Shown one piece after another: positions 11,266 to 36,593 of a DNA stretch of 38,896 bases (its first letter is position 1; each line of letters begins with the position of its first letter). The stretch spans positions 1-38,896 of the IMG/VR virus record IMGVR_UViG_3300032294_000793; one strand, written 5' to 3'. Below the pieces are notes generated by a model. The model was not told where the DNA came from and searched no databases. It saw only the letters and a program-made list of their open reading frames with translations. The position numbers and the translations under genes were made by a program. This DNA is from a virus.

Positions 11266-11293
11266 ATTATACATCCTTGTAAACTATTGTCAA
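11266..11293 (-). promoter_or_regulatory. Leftward late promoter 2 (sigma70 consensus)
   Basis: On the minus strand TTGACA (11293-11288) and TATAAT (11271-11266) are separated by 16 bases, a perfect match to both sigma70 boxes. Transcription should start near 11259, just before the AAGGAG site of the 13-codon peptide. It separates the HNH gene at 11326-11871 from the structural operon. Confidence 0.82.
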
Positions 11294-11325: not shown

Positions 11326-11871
11326 CTAACTACTTGATTTTATTAAAAAGAATTTTAGATTTGTAGCTAGTAATTCTAGTTCTTCTGGTGTAGCATTGCT
11401 TTTAAGTGTGTTAGCTCTATAAGAAATTACATGGACGTTGCCCTTTATATAACCTTTTGAGCTATCTATACGATCTACAGATGGTGAGTTATGAACTGGG
11501 CCTTTTGTTGGTACGTCCCAAACAATCTTTATTCCTAGCAATGGGCAAACATCTGGAATAGTTAGGTCTTCATAAGTTATATCAAACTCTATACCTTTAC
11601 GTAGAGCCCTATTCTTGATAGTAAACAGCATGTGTTTAATTCTATTTTCTTTTGAGCTATATATCTTTTCGTCTCTATACTTTGCTTGATAAGCATTTCG
11701 TTTTTCTTTCTTTGTTAAGATAGGAGCATTTGGGTCTACAGGCTTTCTTGGTTTCTTAGGAACATATTTATTTTTAGCTTTTGCCAAAACCTTTTCTCTG
11801 TGCTTTTCGTAATAGCGTTTAGCCGCAGCCTTTCTCTGTTCTGCTAGTCGTGTAAAGCTTAGTTCCATCAT
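11326..11871 (-). CDS. HNH-type homing endonuclease-like protein
   Basis: A 181-residue protein, basic in its N-terminal half (KRYYEKHREKVLAKAKNKY). The C-terminal half has the pattern VCPLLGIKIVWD, then SPSVDRIDSSKGYIKGNV, VISYRANTLKSNATPEEL. This is the core of a family of phage HNH-like nucleases with conserved Asp-Arg-Ile-Asp and Gly-Asn-Val motifs. Two adjacent ATG codons are possible starts, both served by an AAGGAAG site. It is AT-rich, stands alone between two consensus leftward promoters, and looks like a mobile insertion at the head of the late operon. Confidence 0.82.
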   Translation of the reverse strand: MMELSFTRLAEQRKAAAKRYYEKHREKVLAKAKNKYVPKKPRKPVDPNAPILTKKEKRNAYQAKYRDEKIYSSKENRIKHMLFTIKNRALRKGIEFDITYEDLTIPDVCPLLGIKIVWDVPTKGPVHNSPSVDRIDSSKGYIKGNVHVISYRANTLKSNATPEELELLATNLKFFLIKSSS

Positions 11872-11909
11872 AATAAATACTTCCTTTCTCGAAGTTATGT
11901 ATAGTATTC

Positions 11910-11937
11910 ATTATAATGCTTTATACGAATTTGTCAA
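11910..11937 (-). promoter_or_regulatory. Leftward late promoter 1 (sigma70 consensus)
   Basis: On the minus strand TTGACA (11937-11932) and TATAAT (11915-11910) are spaced by 16 bases. Start near 11903 would yield a short leader before the HNH gene at 11871. The architecture is the same as the second leftward promoter. It is divergent from the rightward promoter at 11999. Confidence 0.85.
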
Positions 11938-11998
11938 GGTTTTTGTGTTTCTATTTTCTTTTGTATATCATGTACTTATAAAATATTTTATTTTGTGC

Positions 11999-12027
11999 TT
12001 GACAAAAGTTAAAAACAACGCTATAAT
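11999..12027 (+). promoter_or_regulatory. Rightward consensus promoter feeding a structured RNA
   Basis: TTGACA (11999-12004) and TATAAT (12022-12027) with a 17-base spacer are a perfect sigma70 promoter, the strongest match on the plus strand. Start is expected near 12034. The next annotated gene is more than 800 bases away, and a terminator lies about 180 bases downstream. Confidence 0.88.
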
Positions 12028-12033
12028 AGACTT

Positions 12034-12233
12034 ATAGGCGCTCCTGGTAATATACATATTTCCCTATACCCCCTTAATATATATTTGAGATAGGGCCAAC
12101 CATGCTTAGCCCTATAATAGCACAAGCTTAGAAGGGCACCCTTGGGTGCTATAGTACAGACCCTATATAACAAAGCATACTCTAGTTACAGTTTAAGCCT
12201 CTAAAGGATTAGGCCCCTTTAGGGGCTATTTTT
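12034..12233 (+). ncRNA. Candidate phage small RNA
   Basis: About 200 bases between a perfect promoter and an intrinsic terminator, without a convincing gene. Visible folds: ATAGGGC (12090-12096) with GCCCTAT (12109-12115), GCACC (12136-12140) with GGTGC (12145-12149), and the terminator hairpin. CTAAAGG (12201-12207) can instead pair with CCTTTAG (12216-12222) inside the terminator, a possible switch. The only plus-strand ATG frame I found is a nine-codon frame at 12102 with no good ribosome site. It could be a regulatory RNA, or an attenuated leader for genes further right. Confidence 0.6.
12212..12233 (+). terminator. Intrinsic terminator after the candidate small RNA
   Basis: GGCCCC (12212-12217), loop TTTA, GGGGCT (12222-12227), then A and TTTTT. 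The stem is six pairs with one G-U. The upstream CTAAAGG could disrupt it. Confidence 0.75.
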
Positions 12234-12348
12234 ATTCCTACTCATTGTAGGCCAAACATATGTTACAAGTGAATCTGATATTTTATCCCGAGTACATACC
12301 TCCATATACCTACCCCCCTCCCTGGCCCCCGCCTGCCCCTATTAGCTG

Positions 12349-12700
12349 GCATGATGCTTGCGTGACCGTTCCATAAAATTTTACCTAAATCTATTTCAAA
12401 TAAATTTAAGTTACGGCATAAATAAAGATCAAGCATGAGATAAAGTATAGCCAAATAAGTCTAAAACTTTAGCTAAATATACCTTAACCCCTTATCAAAC
12501 TTTACCCAAATTTTAGATAAACCATTGACTTGTGGGGATATGCCGATACACTGTAACAAATACAAGCTATGTACTATACACAATGCTTGACCATATAGCC
12601 ATGCAATTTTTGCATATCGTGACCGTACTTGCATAGCTGCTATGCGTATGCAATAAATGCATGATGCTTGTAGCATGTGATTAGCGCATGGTAGTTATGC
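12349..12700 (+). repeat. Palindrome and repeat array, possible origin or operator region
   Basis: The stretch 12234-12868 has no supported gene. It holds GCATGATGCTTG twice (12349-12360, 12659-12670), TGACCGT twice (12363-12369, 12620-12626), an inverted repeat ATGCAA/TTGCAT (12601-12615), and two 15-base palindromes (12631-12645 GCATAGCTGCTATGC; 12686-12700 GCATGGTAGTTATGC). The flanking sequence is AT-rich. The same palindrome recurs after the next gene. A replication origin, a partition-like site, or operators for a phage DNA-binding protein would all fit. Confidence 0.65.
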
Positions 12701-12780
12701 TTTGAAAAAAGATAGGGTAGACCCTTGAATATCCGTTAGGGCTTCCCATATCCATTGTATCGGCAACGGAATTGTGAGTT

Positions 12781-12809
12781 TTGACTTAGCCCCTAGAACA
12801 TGAGATAAT
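12781..12809 (+). promoter_or_regulatory. Promoter for the 321-residue hub gene
   Basis: TTGACT (12781-12786), 17-base spacer, GATAAT (12804-12809). Start near 12816 leaves a leader of about 50 bases before the ATG at 12869. It belongs to the TTGACT family seen repeatedly to the right. Confidence 0.75.
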
Positions 12810-12868: not shown

Positions 12869-13834
12869 ATGTCTAACCAAAACGCTAACGCTAACAATGT
12901 TACCCTGCCCGATATGACGGCGGAAAAGCCTGTCAATACTCAGACCTTGAATGTGAACGATATTCGCCAAGCTATTCAAGGTTTGGCGGGAGAAGCTACT
13001 AAGGCGCACGATAATCGGGAAAGCCTTGTGGCCAAGCTTGCTAACATTGCCGCGCCTTACGTCCAGGCTTGCGAACATGGGTACACCGAGATTGTTGTGC
13101 GCCCGGAAAAGCCCGAGGTTAAGGATAAGGACGGGAACGTGGTGCAACAGGCTATCCCGGAATATACCGAGCATGTGCAGCACAAGCCCCGTCCTATCAC
13201 GGATAAGGACGTTGCCAAGTTTATTAAGGACTCTTTTGGGTTTAAGCCTGAGAAGCTGGAAGGGGATACGGGCGATAGTGTCAAGTCTCGTATCTCTTAC
13301 AAGAATACCACTGTGGAGCAAACAGCCGCTATTAGTGCGAAGGCTTCTATTCTTATCGCACGGAAGCTTGACGGCTTGACGGTGGCCTATTTTGTGGGGC
13401 GTCGTTCGGTTCAAATTGACGCTAACGGAAAGGCTCCCAAGGGCGCCACTTTGCGCCTTGCCTTGCCTCATAACGTGGCGGAACCCCACTTGAAATTTAA
13501 GGGGAACCCCATTGTCAATCCCAACAAGGAATTGATCGTGGCCGCGCCGTCCCAAGTTTCGACTTCCTGGCAAGCGTGCATCGAAGGCAAGAAACGCGAC
13601 GCCTACGGCAAGATTGTTCGTGGTAGCGTGGGCGGGCGGGTGTTTGACTGGTCTAAGGCTATCGGAGATTTGTCTAAGGCCATGTTTGACGACGCGAAAG
13701 ATCAAACGGCGCCTTATGGGGACATTGTTACTAATCGCAAGGCATTGGAAAATCTTGCCGGGCTTATCGATAGCCTTTTGACTAAAGCACAAGATGAATA
13801 CCCCGAAGAATTTGAAGAAAAGAAAGTAGCCTAA
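12869..13834 (+). CDS. Unknown 321-residue protein flanked by palindromes
   Basis: The first rightward gene, with its own promoter, an AGAAGGAA ribosome site and a strong terminator, so it is a single-gene unit that should be well expressed. The product starts with an Asn/Thr-rich segment, has a mixed helix/beta middle (AISAKASILIARKLDGLTVAYFVGRR), a basic segment near KGKKRDAYGKIVRG-like residues 245-260, and an acidic C-terminus (DEYPEEFEEKKVA). I recognise no family and no nuclease, ATPase or classical helix-turn-helix signature. A sampled block is 55% G+C, higher than nearby small genes. Because four copies of a 15-base palindrome flank the gene, a DNA-binding role at these sites is a hypothesis only. 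Confidence 0.85.
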   Translation: MSNQNANANNVTLPDMTAEKPVNTQTLNVNDIRQAIQGLAGEATKAHDNRESLVAKLANIAAPYVQACEHGYTEIVVRPEKPEVKDKDGNVVQQAIPEYTEHVQHKPRPITDKDVAKFIKDSFGFKPEKLEGDTGDSVKSRISYKNTTVEQTAAISAKASILIARKLDGLTVAYFVGRRSVQIDANGKAPKGATLRLALPHNVAEPHLKFKGNPIVNPNKELIVAAPSQVSTSWQACIEGKKRDAYGKIVRGSVGGRVFDWSKAIGDLSKAMFDDAKDQTAPYGDIVTNRKALENLAGLIDSLLTKAQDEYPEEFEEKKVA

Positions 13835-16392: not shown

Positions 16393-16469
16393 GTGTCCGT
16401 AGCTCAACTGGACAGAGCACCGTCCTTCTAAGACGGTGGTTGCTGGTTCGAGTCCAGCCGGGCACGCCA
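16393..16469 (+). tRNA. tRNA-Arg (anticodon TCT)
   Basis: A clean cloverleaf: acceptor GTGTCCG/CGGGCAC, D arm with AGCTCAACTGGACAGAGC, anticodon stem ACCGTC/GACGGT with loop CTTCTAA and anticodon TCT, T arm CTGG-TTCGAGT-CCAG, and an encoded GCCA end. It would decode AGA (and AGG), codons that are common in this phage and usually rare in GC-rich hosts. Confidence 0.96.
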
Positions 16470-16912: not shown

Positions 16913-16990
16913 GTTCCCATCGTCTAACTGGTCTAGGACACTAGCCCTCTCAGGCAAGAAATAGTGGTTCGACTCCACTTGGGAACGCCA
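16913..16990 (+). tRNA. tRNA-Glu (anticodon CTC), copy 1
   Basis: Acceptor GTTCCCA/TGGGAAC, Glu-like D region TCGTCTAACTGGTCTAGGAC, T arm AGTGG-TTCGACT-CCACT, encoded GCCA. The anticodon arm is odd: CTAGCC pairs with GGCAAG (one A-A mismatch) around a six-base loop CTCTCA instead of the usual seven. Anticodon CTC is read by position. It starts eight bases after the module gene. Confidence 0.85.
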
Positions 16991-18404: not shown

Positions 18405-18482
18405 GTTCCCTTCGTCTAATTGGACTAGGACACTTGCCCTCTCAGGTAGGAAATGATGGTTCGACCCCATCAGGGAACGCCA
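18405..18482 (+). tRNA. tRNA-Glu (anticodon CTC), copy 2
   Basis: Acceptor GTTCCCT/AGGGAAC, D region TCGTCTAATTGGACTAGGAC, T arm GATGG-TTCGACC-CCATC, encoded GCCA. As in copy 1 the anticodon stem (CTTGCC/GGTAGG, six pairs with G-U) closes a six-base loop CTCTCA. Compensating changes between the two copies keep the acceptor and T stems paired, which argues that both are maintained. Confidence 0.85.
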
Positions 18483-22261: not shown

Positions 22262-23878
22262 ATGACCAAATCGACCATTGTTCAGTTGTCCGATAAGGTA
22301 CGTACCGTTACTCGTGGCGATGGTACCATGTCGGATTTGCTGTATGATCTACTTACTACTCCTACGCCTCACGGCCACGAGAGTAAGATTCATCATCTGC
22401 TGCCGTTCATGCGCGACGACTGGCAAGGTCAAAAGCCTGTTATCGACGAGGTTGGCAACATTATTCTCGATGTTGGCACTCCCAAGAAAGACTTCCGTAC
22501 CGTGTTTAGCTGCCATATGGATACTGTCCATACCAGCCATGAAACACGTATGGGGTTGATGTATACTCTACAAGACGGTCCTCCAGAGACAGAAGGCATG
22601 ATCTACGCCTTCACTAAGTACACTACAGCCAAAGGCGAGGAAGTAGTAGCTCCGTCTATTCTGGGTGCCGACGATAAGGTAGGCATGTTTATCATGCTTA
22701 ACCTTATCGAGAATAATGTTCCTGGTCGATACATTTTCCACATCGGAGAAGAGCGCGGTGGTATCGGCTCCAAGCATATCGCAACCAAGACGCCAGACGT
22801 ATTGAAGCATATGCGTCGTGCTATCGCGTTTGATCGTATGCACTATTCCGATACTATCTCGTTTCAGGCCGGTGGTCGTTGCTGTTCCACTGAGTTCAGC
22901 ACGGCCCTTGCCAATGAGATTAACGAGTGCCTGTCTACTCGCCAGATTTCTTTCAAGCCCGATGTTCGTGGCGTATGGACTGACACTGCTAACTATACGT
23001 CGTTGGTAGCGGAATGCACCAATCTATCCGTTGGGTATTTCAATCAGCACACTACGCAAGAACACTTCGATCTTATTTGGCTAAAGGATATTCTGCTTCC
23101 TGCACTTCTCAAGGTTAACTGGGAGACTCTGCCCACAGTACGAGACAAGACAGCCAAGGAACCGGAGTATTCGTACAGCTACAACTACGGAAAGAATCAT
23201 AACACTAACTATTCGTATGATTATGGCAAGGTAGCCAACTCGAACGTGCAGTTCAAGGATGTAAACAAAGATACTCCACTTTATCGTTTGCCAAAGTGGA
23301 AGCCTCTTGATGGTATTCCAGAAGAACTGCCTGAGAACATGCTTACAAAGCTGTGCGAAGGCTACGTATTCGAGTACATGTACAAGAGCAACGATGTTGC
23401 TTCCTCTATATCCATGCTGCTTGCAGCCAATAAAAAGTTGCAGGAGACCAACAGGGAAATGCGTCGCCATATAGCAAAGACAGGCGATGAAGTCTATCGA
23501 AACACATCCTTGAAGATGAACGCCATCAAGCGTCTGATGCGAGCGTACAAGGAACTTCGCAACGAAAACAAGATTGTTATCGAAGTGTCCTACGTACCTA
23601 GCAATAAGACTTCCGTTCAGTGCCTAAACGATATGGAGGATATGTATCTAGATTTTGGCATGATGGAAACAGATGTAAACGAGAATTTTATTCGTGCTCC
23701 CGAGTTGCAAGCAAACATCAACAAGTTTCTTGAGGATGTAGCTATCACTTTTCATTCTGCCTGTAGAAGTAGCCCAACATTTACAGCTTGCTTCAAGAAC
23801 TTGGTCAAGGTTATTAAGCGGTTTAAGGACGAGCCGGGTATAACTCGTTTGTATAGAGCCAAGGAGGATGCACAATGA
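22262..23878 (+). CDS. M20/M28-type zinc metallopeptidase-like protein
   Basis: A 538-residue protein with an AAGGAA ribosome site. The N-terminal about 300 residues carry metallopeptidase motifs: TPTPHGHES near 34, HMDTVH (85-90), GADDKVG (135-141), GEERGGIGS (162-170), AFDR with D191, and NQHTTQEHFD (261-270). These match the two-zinc, aminopeptidase-like fold (peptidase T and M28/M42 relatives), which cleaves peptides. A Tyr/Asn-rich linker and a helical C-terminal part of about 230 residues with no match follow. Phages rarely carry such enzymes. It could process host peptides, or bind them without cleavage. The family call is good; the role is unknown. Confidence 0.8.
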   Translation: MTKSTIVQLSDKVRTVTRGDGTMSDLLYDLLTTPTPHGHESKIHHLLPFMRDDWQGQKPVIDEVGNIILDVGTPKKDFRTVFSCHMDTVHTSHETRMGLMYTLQDGPPETEGMIYAFTKYTTAKGEEVVAPSILGADDKVGMFIMLNLIENNVPGRYIFHIGEERGGIGSKHIATKTPDVLKHMRRAIAFDRMHYSDTISFQAGGRCCSTEFSTALANEINECLSTRQISFKPDVRGVWTDTANYTSLVAECTNLSVGYFNQHTTQEHFDLIWLKDILLPALLKVNWETLPTVRDKTAKEPEYSYSYNYGKNHNTNYSYDYGKVANSNVQFKDVNKDTPLYRLPKWKPLDGIPEELPENMLTKLCEGYVFEYMYKSNDVASSISMLLAANKKLQETNREMRRHIAKTGDEVYRNTSLKMNAIKRLMRAYKELRNENKIVIEVSYVPSNKTSVQCLNDMEDMYLDFGMMETDVNENFIRAPELQANINKFLEDVAITFHSACRSSPTFTACFKNLVKVIKRFKDEPGITRLYRAKEDAQ

Positions 23879-24573
23879 ACGATGAAAAATTAATGCACGA
23901 GCTAAGGCTAGGTTTACATTCTAAATATAGCATAGCGGCATTAAGTAGTTTAGCTGCTGTACGTATTCAGGATTTACTTGATAAGTTACAATCATTAGAA
24001 GAACGTGCCCGCGCCGCAGACCTCGTTCGCTCCCTTGCGGACCTCGTGGGGATCGAACTGGCCCCCAAGGCTCCCCAAGAAAAACCGTTCGACTATAAAG
24101 ACTACTCCCAGTTCTCGATCACCAGTCGCGTTCGTTGCGCTGTGATCGAGTATCTACACGCGAGATTTATGGGCCACCCCGAACTCCCGAACATCCTCGA
24201 AGACCGCACCTACCAATCGTGGATCGATAAGGCCCTGGTCGCCTCTGGCGTCCCTTACTCGGTCGTAGAGGCCCCCAAGTTCCTCAAGGCCCGTGGTATC
24301 TCCCATGTGAACGCTTACCGGGATGAAGACCTCGGGCGGGCCATCGCCGCCTACCCCTGGCATGGGTATCAGAACACCAAGAACCCGAAAGCCGCCCCGC
24401 CGACGGAGCCGAGCGAGGCAATTTTCGACCAAGCAAAAGCCGCCGCCGCGCAAATGTGGCCCGACCTGCACGAGGACGACGGTATCCGCAGGAAGTCGAT
24501 AACTCTGTGGTTGGCGGGCTACGACGCCGCCATCGCCGCCCTGCGCGCGGCAAAGGAGAAGGAACATGGGTAA
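23875..24573 (+). CDS. Chimeric protein spanning a composition junction
   Basis: A 232-residue protein overlapping the previous gene by four bases. The first 42 codons are AT-rich like the phage (60 bases before 24001 are 30% G+C); from 24001 the same frame continues at 68%. Thus the foreign block enters this gene in frame. The foreign part contains SWIDKALVASGVPYSVVEAP and ends with a helical LAGYDAAIAALRAAKEKEHG. No family is recognised. The product may be functional, but its N- and C-parts come from different sources. Confidence 0.72.
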   Translation: MNDEKLMHELRLGLHSKYSIAALSSLAAVRIQDLLDKLQSLEERARAADLVRSLADLVGIELAPKAPQEKPFDYKDYSQFSITSRVRCAVIEYLHARFMGHPELPNILEDRTYQSWIDKALVASGVPYSVVEAPKFLKARGISHVNAYRDEDLGRAIAAYPWHGYQNTKNPKAAPPTEPSEAIFDQAKAAAAQMWPDLHEDDGIRRKSITLWLAGYDAAIAALRAAKEKEHG

Positions 24574-25981: not shown

Positions 25982-25999
25982 CTTTGTTTGTGCTATATT
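25971..25999 (+). promoter_or_regulatory. Promoter E, nearly leaderless
   Basis: TTGACA (25971-25976), 17 bases, TATATT (25994-25999) with TGC before the -10. The expected start near 26006 is only about three bases before the ATG at 26009. The -35 box is in the coding end of the previous gene. Confidence 0.75.
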
Positions 26000-26008
26000 A
26001 TAAACATC

Positions 26009-26521
26009 ATGAACATATTTGCAACAGACCCCTGCCCATACCAATCTGCCGCTAATCTTGATGATAAGCGCGTAGTCAAAATGTGTCTAGAGACAGCACA
26101 AATGTTGTCTACTGCCGCCCTAGTATTGTGGCGATATGAAGATATATTTGATGCGCCACTTCTAAAGCCAGCGTATCAGAAGCATCCCTGTACACTATGG
26201 GCTGGTGAGAATACCCACCATTTCTATTGGCTTGTTCAGCATGGTATAGCTCTTTGCGAACTATACACACGAGTCTATGGCAAAATTCATAAGAACGCAC
26301 AGCTAATCAGATGGTTTAGCCCATGTACTAATCGTGCAGATTGTCTGCCGCCTTGGAGGTTTGCTAACTGTACACGTAACGAGGCTGCTGGTGTAGACTT
26401 CAAACACGTAGAAGATACGCACTTAGCCTATCGTATGTACCTTAACGCTAGATGGGCTAAAGATAAGCGTTCGCCTACATGGCAAGGCAGACCTACTCCA
26501 AGCTTCTTAGAAAGTGCTTAA
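26009..26521 (+). CDS. Conserved phage protein, DDKRVVKM family
   Basis: A 170-residue protein starting at MNIFATDPCPYQSAANLDDK. The conserved opening (SAANLDDKRVVKMCLETAQM), the HPCTLWAGENTHHFYWLV segment and YGKIHKNAQL match a protein common in many phages from memory. It is of unknown function, although sometimes labelled as a DNA repair glycosylase without proof I know of. A TTG upstream at 25988 lies inside the promoter and was not used. The stop overlaps the primase start as TAATG. Confidence 0.82.
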   Translation: MNIFATDPCPYQSAANLDDKRVVKMCLETAQMLSTAALVLWRYEDIFDAPLLKPAYQKHPCTLWAGENTHHFYWLVQHGIALCELYTRVYGKIHKNAQLIRWFSPCTNRADCLPPWRFANCTRNEAAGVDFKHVEDTHLAYRMYLNARWAKDKRSPTWQGRPTPSFLESA

Positions 26522-36029: not shown

Positions 36030-36244
36030 TGGACGATACAGTTGATGTTATTAACGAAGCAGTACGAGAAAAGATTAAGAGACGAGCACAAGTAGGTGCT
36101 AAGAAATATGGAGTGACAATTCTTCGTGACGATATCGACTTGGAGGGATGGCTTATTCACCTACAGGAAGAACTTATGGATGCTTCCGTATATATCGAGC
36201 GCACCCTGTATGAACTTAGAAAGAGACAAGATGACCACAAATGA
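36029..36244 (+). CDS. Small MazG-like/pyrophosphohydrolase-related protein
   Basis: A 71-residue protein with a TAATG start. REKIKRRAQVGAKKYGVTIL, then DLEGWLIHLQEELMDASVYI matches a phage family related to all-alpha NTP pyrophosphohydrolases; the EEL-DA is the likely metal-binding helix. The gene overlaps the MazG-like gene that follows. It could trim dNTP or alarmone pools, or be a non-catalytic partner. The family call rests on pattern memory. Confidence 0.7.
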   Translation: MDDTVDVINEAVREKIKRRAQVGAKKYGVTILRDDIDLEGWLIHLQEELMDASVYIERTLYELRKRQDDHK

Positions 36245-36593
36245 TTATGAAAACAATGTACTAGCTAGAGCTTCTGCCTCTATGCACGTAGTAAATCCAG
36301 GGCTTCTACACGGAGCTATGGGTATCTGCGGCGAAGCTGGTGAGGTTATGGAAATTGCCAAGAAGGCAATGTTCTACGGTAAGCCAGTAGATACGGATAA
36401 GCTTAAGCTAGAGCTTGGCGATGTACTTTGGTACTTAACCTTAGTCACTAAGTCCATAGGCTCTTCTCTTACGGAGATTATGGAGCTTAACGACAAGAAG
36501 CTAGCCGCCCGTTTTGGCGGTACAAAATTTGATGCTGAAAAGGCAATCAATAAGGACGAAGCGAAAGAAGCACAGCTTTCACTTTTGTCTTGA
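36231..36593 (+). CDS. MazG-like NTP pyrophosphohydrolase
   Basis: A 120-residue protein; I start at ATG 36231 (MTTNDYENNV), since a longer frame would run over the previous gene. GICGEAGEVMEIAKKA (E35, E38) and LELGDVLWYL (E61, D64) are the paired metal-binding helices of MazG enzymes, which hydrolyse NTPs or dNTPs (and possibly ppGpp) to monophosphates. Phages use such enzymes to recycle host nucleotides or manage starvation signals. Its stop TGA is inside the -35 box of the next promoter. Confidence 0.88.
   Translation: MTTNDYENNVLARASASMHVVNPGLLHGAMGICGEAGEVMEIAKKAMFYGKPVDTDKLKLELGDVLWYLTLVTKSIGSSLTEIMELNDKKLAARFGGTKFDAEKAINKDEAKEAQLSLLS

Follow-up and report, generated by a model that had tools for sequence, protein, structure and literature searches.

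Iteron-type or transcription-activated origins of phages and plasmids include ColE1 RNA II, T4 oriF/oriG and lambda ori, and lambda oop and P22 sar are examples of phage small RNAs that possess a promoter and a terminator of their own. The locus described here shares with the origins a strong promoter directed toward AT-rich DNA that contains short direct repeats, placed in a noncoding gap between divergent gene blocks. Unlike them, it has no recognised initiator protein, and its repeats are not conserved in relatives. With lambda oop and P22 sar it shares a consensus promoter, an intrinsic terminator and, as predicted, a short untranslated RNA; it differs from them in that this RNA is not antisense to a known regulator and has no recognised target or structure.

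The locus lies in the window, as we call the whole 38,896-nucleotide stretch analysed, an IMG/VR virus record that represents a divergent HMO-2011-type phage. Its terminase large subunit shows 54–60% identity to those of many IMG/VR contigs and 57% identity to that of Pelagibacter phage HTVC033P. Based on these identities, the window was assigned to the HMO-2011-type phages, a group that includes Puniceispirillum phage HMO-2011, Pelagibacter phages HTVC033P and HTVC104P, and Roseobacter phages CRP-1 and CRP-3 (PMC9038755). These phages are among the abundant ocean viruses. In the 2022 paper describing the group, the words "promoter", "noncoding" and "intergenic" do not occur in the main text (PMC9038755), and no description of promoters, noncoding RNAs or an origin of HMO-2011-type phages was found in the literature searched.

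Architecture of the junction and its promoters

The window has the same terminase and portal types as the other HMO-2011-type phages and the same genome halves, with structural genes running leftward and replication genes running rightward from about 12 kb. It differs from them by an endonuclease gene located behind the divergent promoter, by its longer 5' part and by an intrinsic terminator, which they lack. A DNA search of positions 11500-12800 against phage records returned no match. The features of the junction are listed below.

11266-11293, − strand (leftward): third perfect promoter, TTGACA-16-TATAAT (12/12)
11326-11871, − strand: endonuclease gene (endonuclease VII/HNH type; phrog_3322, 7.4e-32), behind the divergent promoter
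11910-11937, − strand: divergent perfect promoter, TTGACA-16-TATAAT (12/12)
11999-12027, + strand: perfect sigma-70 promoter, TTGACA-17-TATAAT (12/12), predicted start at about 12034
12034-12233, + strand: predicted noncoding transcript of about 200 nt, with no ORF and no global structure beyond chance
12196-12233, + strand: intrinsic terminator, a 12-bp stem (12196-12227, -18.5 kcal/mol) followed by ATTTTT
12263-12342, + strand: conserved core of a noncoding element common to HMO-2011-type relatives (profile match)
12349-12360, + strand: direct repeat GCATGATGCTTG, copy 1 (exact)
12376-12521, + strand: four iteron-like copies of AAAYTTTANMYAAA (at 12376, 12464, 12497 and 12508) in AT-rich DNA of 23-35% GC
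12659-12670, + strand: direct repeat GCATGATGCTTG, copy 2 (exact)
12781-12809, + strand: second promoter-like site, TTGACT-17-GATAAT with a TG extension (10/12), 60 nt before the next gene
12869-13834, + strand: next gene, encoding a 321-aa protein of unknown family, with no family match and no relative in IMG/VR

Perfect 12/12 promoters occur three times in the window, against 0.01 expected from shuffled sequences, which upholds the original prediction of such a promoter at 11999-12027 on the + strand. A consensus or near-consensus promoter is found at the equivalent position in relatives, whose junction contains a pair of consensus promoters, divergent and separated by about 20-50 bp. Where the window has the endonuclease gene, a leader RNA and terminase-side genes occupy the locus in relatives. 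A tiny ORF, MACGPKKKQPKKK (11231-11190, − strand), follows the third perfect promoter (11293-11266) and would encode a short basic peptide.

Elsewhere in the window, a tRNA-Arg(TCT) gene is found at 16393-16469, together with two further, mutually similar tRNA genes at 16913-16990 and 18405-18482; ARAGORN reported this pair without an amino acid, and the loop CTCTCAG, read by eye, corresponds to Glu(CTC). MazG-type pyrophosphohydrolase and pyrimidine-dimer glycosylase domains are present among the replication genes (36126-36593 and 25988-26521). Between 24000 and 25050, inside a + strand ORF (23875-24573), the GC content jumps abruptly from about 45% to 63% over roughly 1 kb, which may reflect a foreign insert, recombination of the gene or a chimeric assembly.

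The conserved core and its distribution among relatives

A noncoding element, about 220 nt in length and with its motifs in a fixed order, is present in relatives. It follows a promoter pointing away from the terminase and holds a constant position, just past one of the two divergent promoters and upstream of the terminase genes. A profile was built from 77 relatives with the window left out, and its top match in the whole window is 12263-12342 on the + strand (E 0.0023; E 2.5e-5 within the 860-bp region). None of 500 regional shuffles reached the score of 12.4 bits, the highest being 7.8. The recognisable core lies downstream of a same-strand consensus promoter, the arrangement expected of the element family, which is defined here from relatives, and downstream of the terminator, outside the segment 11999-12233 described by the original prediction. 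The 5' half of the element, marked in relatives by a CCCC/GGGG block, CCCCCTAGGG and ATATTGTC, is lacking in the window, and a profile of this half gave no significant match in the window region. Judged by its core only, the window is a divergent relative of the element family. Positions 12034-12233 could not be aligned to relatives, so the 200-nt RNA may be peculiar to the lineage of the window. The presence of the element accounts for a perfect promoter without a gene at 11999-12027.

The element was detected at E ≤ 1e-4 in 163 of the 244 loci examined, a collection that partly reflects selection by promoter or leader pattern; a promoter-like sequence stands in front of it in 160 of 162 usable loci. 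Within a set assembled by terminase similarity only, 19 of the 33 contigs having at least 2.5 kb upstream contain it. Among isolates, it is clearest in HTVC033P (E 3.6e-53); CRP-1 has a core match (E 0.0013), and in HTVC104P reading by eye revealed this motif series behind a perfect promoter. For HMO-2011 itself, HTVC104P and CRP-3, the profile matches to the core were weak (E 0.1 to 1). Bacterial genomes yielded no full element; their 96 stretches with the 17-mer correspond to the chance expectation. No published description of the element was found in the literature searched, the coverage of which was partial, so that this absence is no proof of novelty. Its conservation at a fixed place, also in cultivated phages such as HTVC033P, makes it accessible to RNA-seq and origin mapping.

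In most relatives, the first sizeable gene past the element is convergent and ends about 410 nt from the -10 box; in HTVC033P, this convergent neighbour is gp84. Given a convergent next gene, the promoter would make a stand-alone noncoding transcript and not a leader. At one locus, a gene of the same protein family as gp84 (L016:3078-3944, − strand) is co-directional with the element, and since the element is kept with the neighbour family in either orientation, it is not tied to the downstream gene. The gp84-type family was modelled with a pLDDT of 74, and a fold search with it returned nothing significant and no resemblance to a replication initiator. The structure model of the 321-aa protein of the window is poor (pLDDT 36), and its homology to the convergent gene family of the relatives was not supported.

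Past the core, copies of AAAYTTTANMYAAA are confined to the four listed positions in the entire window (0.67 expected), and two sets of regional shuffles (60 and 100) contained no repeat family of four. With at most one mismatch, GCATGATGCTTG matches three times in the window (0.17 expected). Relatives do not preserve the sequence of the window's iteron-like repeats, and their excess of short repeats is mild. Short direct repeats combined with AT-rich DNA, as in iteron-type origins, are present in the window and weakly echoed in relatives. The anatomy of the region after the core hints at an iteron-like origin, a putative start site for phage DNA copying.

Group A relatives (47 sequences) have a mean column identity of 71% with 42 invariant columns, and their consensus structure comprises 7 pairs, 0 of them with a compensatory change. 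A scan of the element for covarying helices yielded none that was convincing, the best ones pairing in about 60% of cells; the same scan on the opposite leader gave an immediate signal (85% of cells, z 18.5). The covariation-supported conserved structure expected of a structured RNA family was not detected in the MAFFT alignments, which limit this test and may hide real helices. In column-shuffle fold tests of the element, z ranged from about -1 to -10 and in most cases differed little between the strands; because of this likeness and the lack of a covarying helix, these tests were not counted as RNA evidence. Conservation of sequence without a covarying helix, with both strands alike, is as expected of a DNA rather than an RNA function. 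No Rfam family matched above its gathering score. A hand-picked helix, TATTCC/GGAATA with variants, performed overall no better than chimeras. Additionally, some subgroups have a small co-varying inverted repeat directly after the -10 box (at least 4 bp in 21 of 50, against about 15% expected); this repeat might function as an operator or form a hairpin in the RNA.

The predicted transcript and the function of the region

The ORF list confirms that no convincing gene lies between the promoter and the terminator. The terminator proposed by the original prediction also proved sound, as a stem this strong followed by a T tract occurred in 0 of 20 window shuffles and in 1 of 1000 shuffles of a 300-nt stretch. 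No comparable terminator precedes the core in the 77 relatives, relatives in general have no consistent one before or just after the core, and a search for the exact terminator pattern in viral contigs gave no match. With its own promoter, a terminator and no ORF, the segment has at the sequence level the composition of an intrinsically terminated small RNA. The idea that this RNA is structured did not hold. Its 202 nt have an MFE of -49.6 kcal/mol, compared with -50.1 ± 4.3 in shuffles (z 0.12), the MFE structure makes up 0.2% of the ensemble, and the fold z without the terminator is +1.3; the RNA is thus structured no more than chance, the terminator excepted, and relatives provide no covariation support.

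Our tentatively favoured reading is that the locus acts in early control or as a replication origin, and that its transcript is short and untranslated. According to this model, a noncoding control region would separate the leftward structural genes from the rightward replication genes, and the host sigma-70 RNA polymerase would initiate at the two divergent consensus promoters. The rightward promoter would give rise to a short untranslated RNA of about 200 nt, stopped by its own terminator and not serving as an mRNA leader. The conserved part, consisting of 12263-12342 and the AT-rich repeats after it, would work mainly as DNA, most likely in early control and as the replication origin; there, the strong promoter could provide transcription that opens the duplex or supplies a primer. 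Both the occurrence of transcription and the role of the core as an origin are inferred here from sequence features. Against this reading stand the repeats, which are unconserved in relatives, the neighbour family, which shows no resemblance to a replication initiator, the inverted repeat that co-varies in some subgroups, together with the possibility that the MAFFT alignments hide helices, and the unalignable 5' part.

A trans-acting phage small RNA, transcribed strongly and early, ended by the terminator and acting through base pairing or host-protein binding, is possible, though we consider it the less probable reading. It would agree with the perfect promoter, the strong terminator and the lack of an ORF, as well as with the stand-alone arrangement and convergent neighbour in relatives and the 42 invariant columns of group A. 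However, fold and covariation signals are absent, the RNA of the window (12034-12233) is unalignable to relatives, and these relatives have no consistent terminator around the core, which in the window lies outside the terminated RNA. The lack of a covarying helix, the position of the core past the terminator and the AT-rich repeats together favour the control or origin region over the small RNA.

An attenuated early leader, in which transcription would stop at 12233 and, upon antitermination, run into the 321-aa gene and the replication genes, is unlikely. The window does resemble attenuators and riboswitch leaders in its order of promoter, short leader, terminator and co-directional gene (12869-13834), but it lacks the mutually exclusive antiterminator that defines a transcription attenuator. 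The pairing of CTAAAGG (12201-12207) with CCTTTAG (12216-12222), originally seen as competing with the terminator stem, is real, yet both segments belong to the upper part of that same 12-bp stem, and no competition arises. A shorter alternative hairpin, GCCCC/GGGGC (-11.3 with one more pair), stops before the same T tract; because both alternative stems precede this tract, both should terminate and neither is an antiterminator. Furthermore, a separate promoter-like site precedes the 321-aa gene, most relatives have a convergent next gene, and no upstream peptide or covarying switch was found. Between the small RNA and the leader or switch that had been offered as alternatives, a short noncoding transcript is well supported, whereas the leader or switch fails on the missing antiterminator, the separate promoter-like site and the variable orientation of the neighbour.

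A packaging element beside the terminase genes, either a pac site or a pRNA-like packaging RNA, is improbable: several relatives have the element shortly upstream of the terminase genes, but in the window the terminase is 6 kb away from the noncoding region with tail genes in between, and neither a pRNA-like conserved structure nor an Rfam match was found. Just as improbable is a lineage-specific promoter–terminator pair of little importance, for example a transcriptional insulator of the intergenic region, which would suit the unalignable 5' part and the lack of a fold signal but not the conservation of promoter and core across many divergent relatives.

The terminase-side leader of the relatives

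It is conceivable, albeit doubtful, that HMO-2011-type phages share an undescribed module composed of divergent promoters, a stand-alone RNA that licenses or primes an adjacent origin and, in the relatives, a structured opposite leader; the window would then hold a diverged version, in which the terminator cuts the RNA before the origin core.

The opposite leader was observed in about 80 distinct relatives, in which the terminase-ward transcript starts with conserved GGACACAC and GGTCATCAC boxes inside variable complementary arms. This motif is absent from the window. In an alignment whose rows were picked by the boxes only, 10 of the 11 pairs of the arms carry compensatory changes affecting both sides, pairing holds in 85% of cells, compared with 27-43% when the arms are slid, and none of 500 shuffles reaches the covariation score. 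The motif matched no Rfam family. The comparison, which covered Rfam families, suggests a structured leader motif that is undescribed; a further marine motif, Ocean-VI, appears in PMC2864571 with no Rfam number. The leader is located in HTVC033P at 51426-51515 on the − strand (L082:1563-1650) with an E-value of 1.6e-15, which is not independent because HTVC033P is among the training sequences of the leader model.
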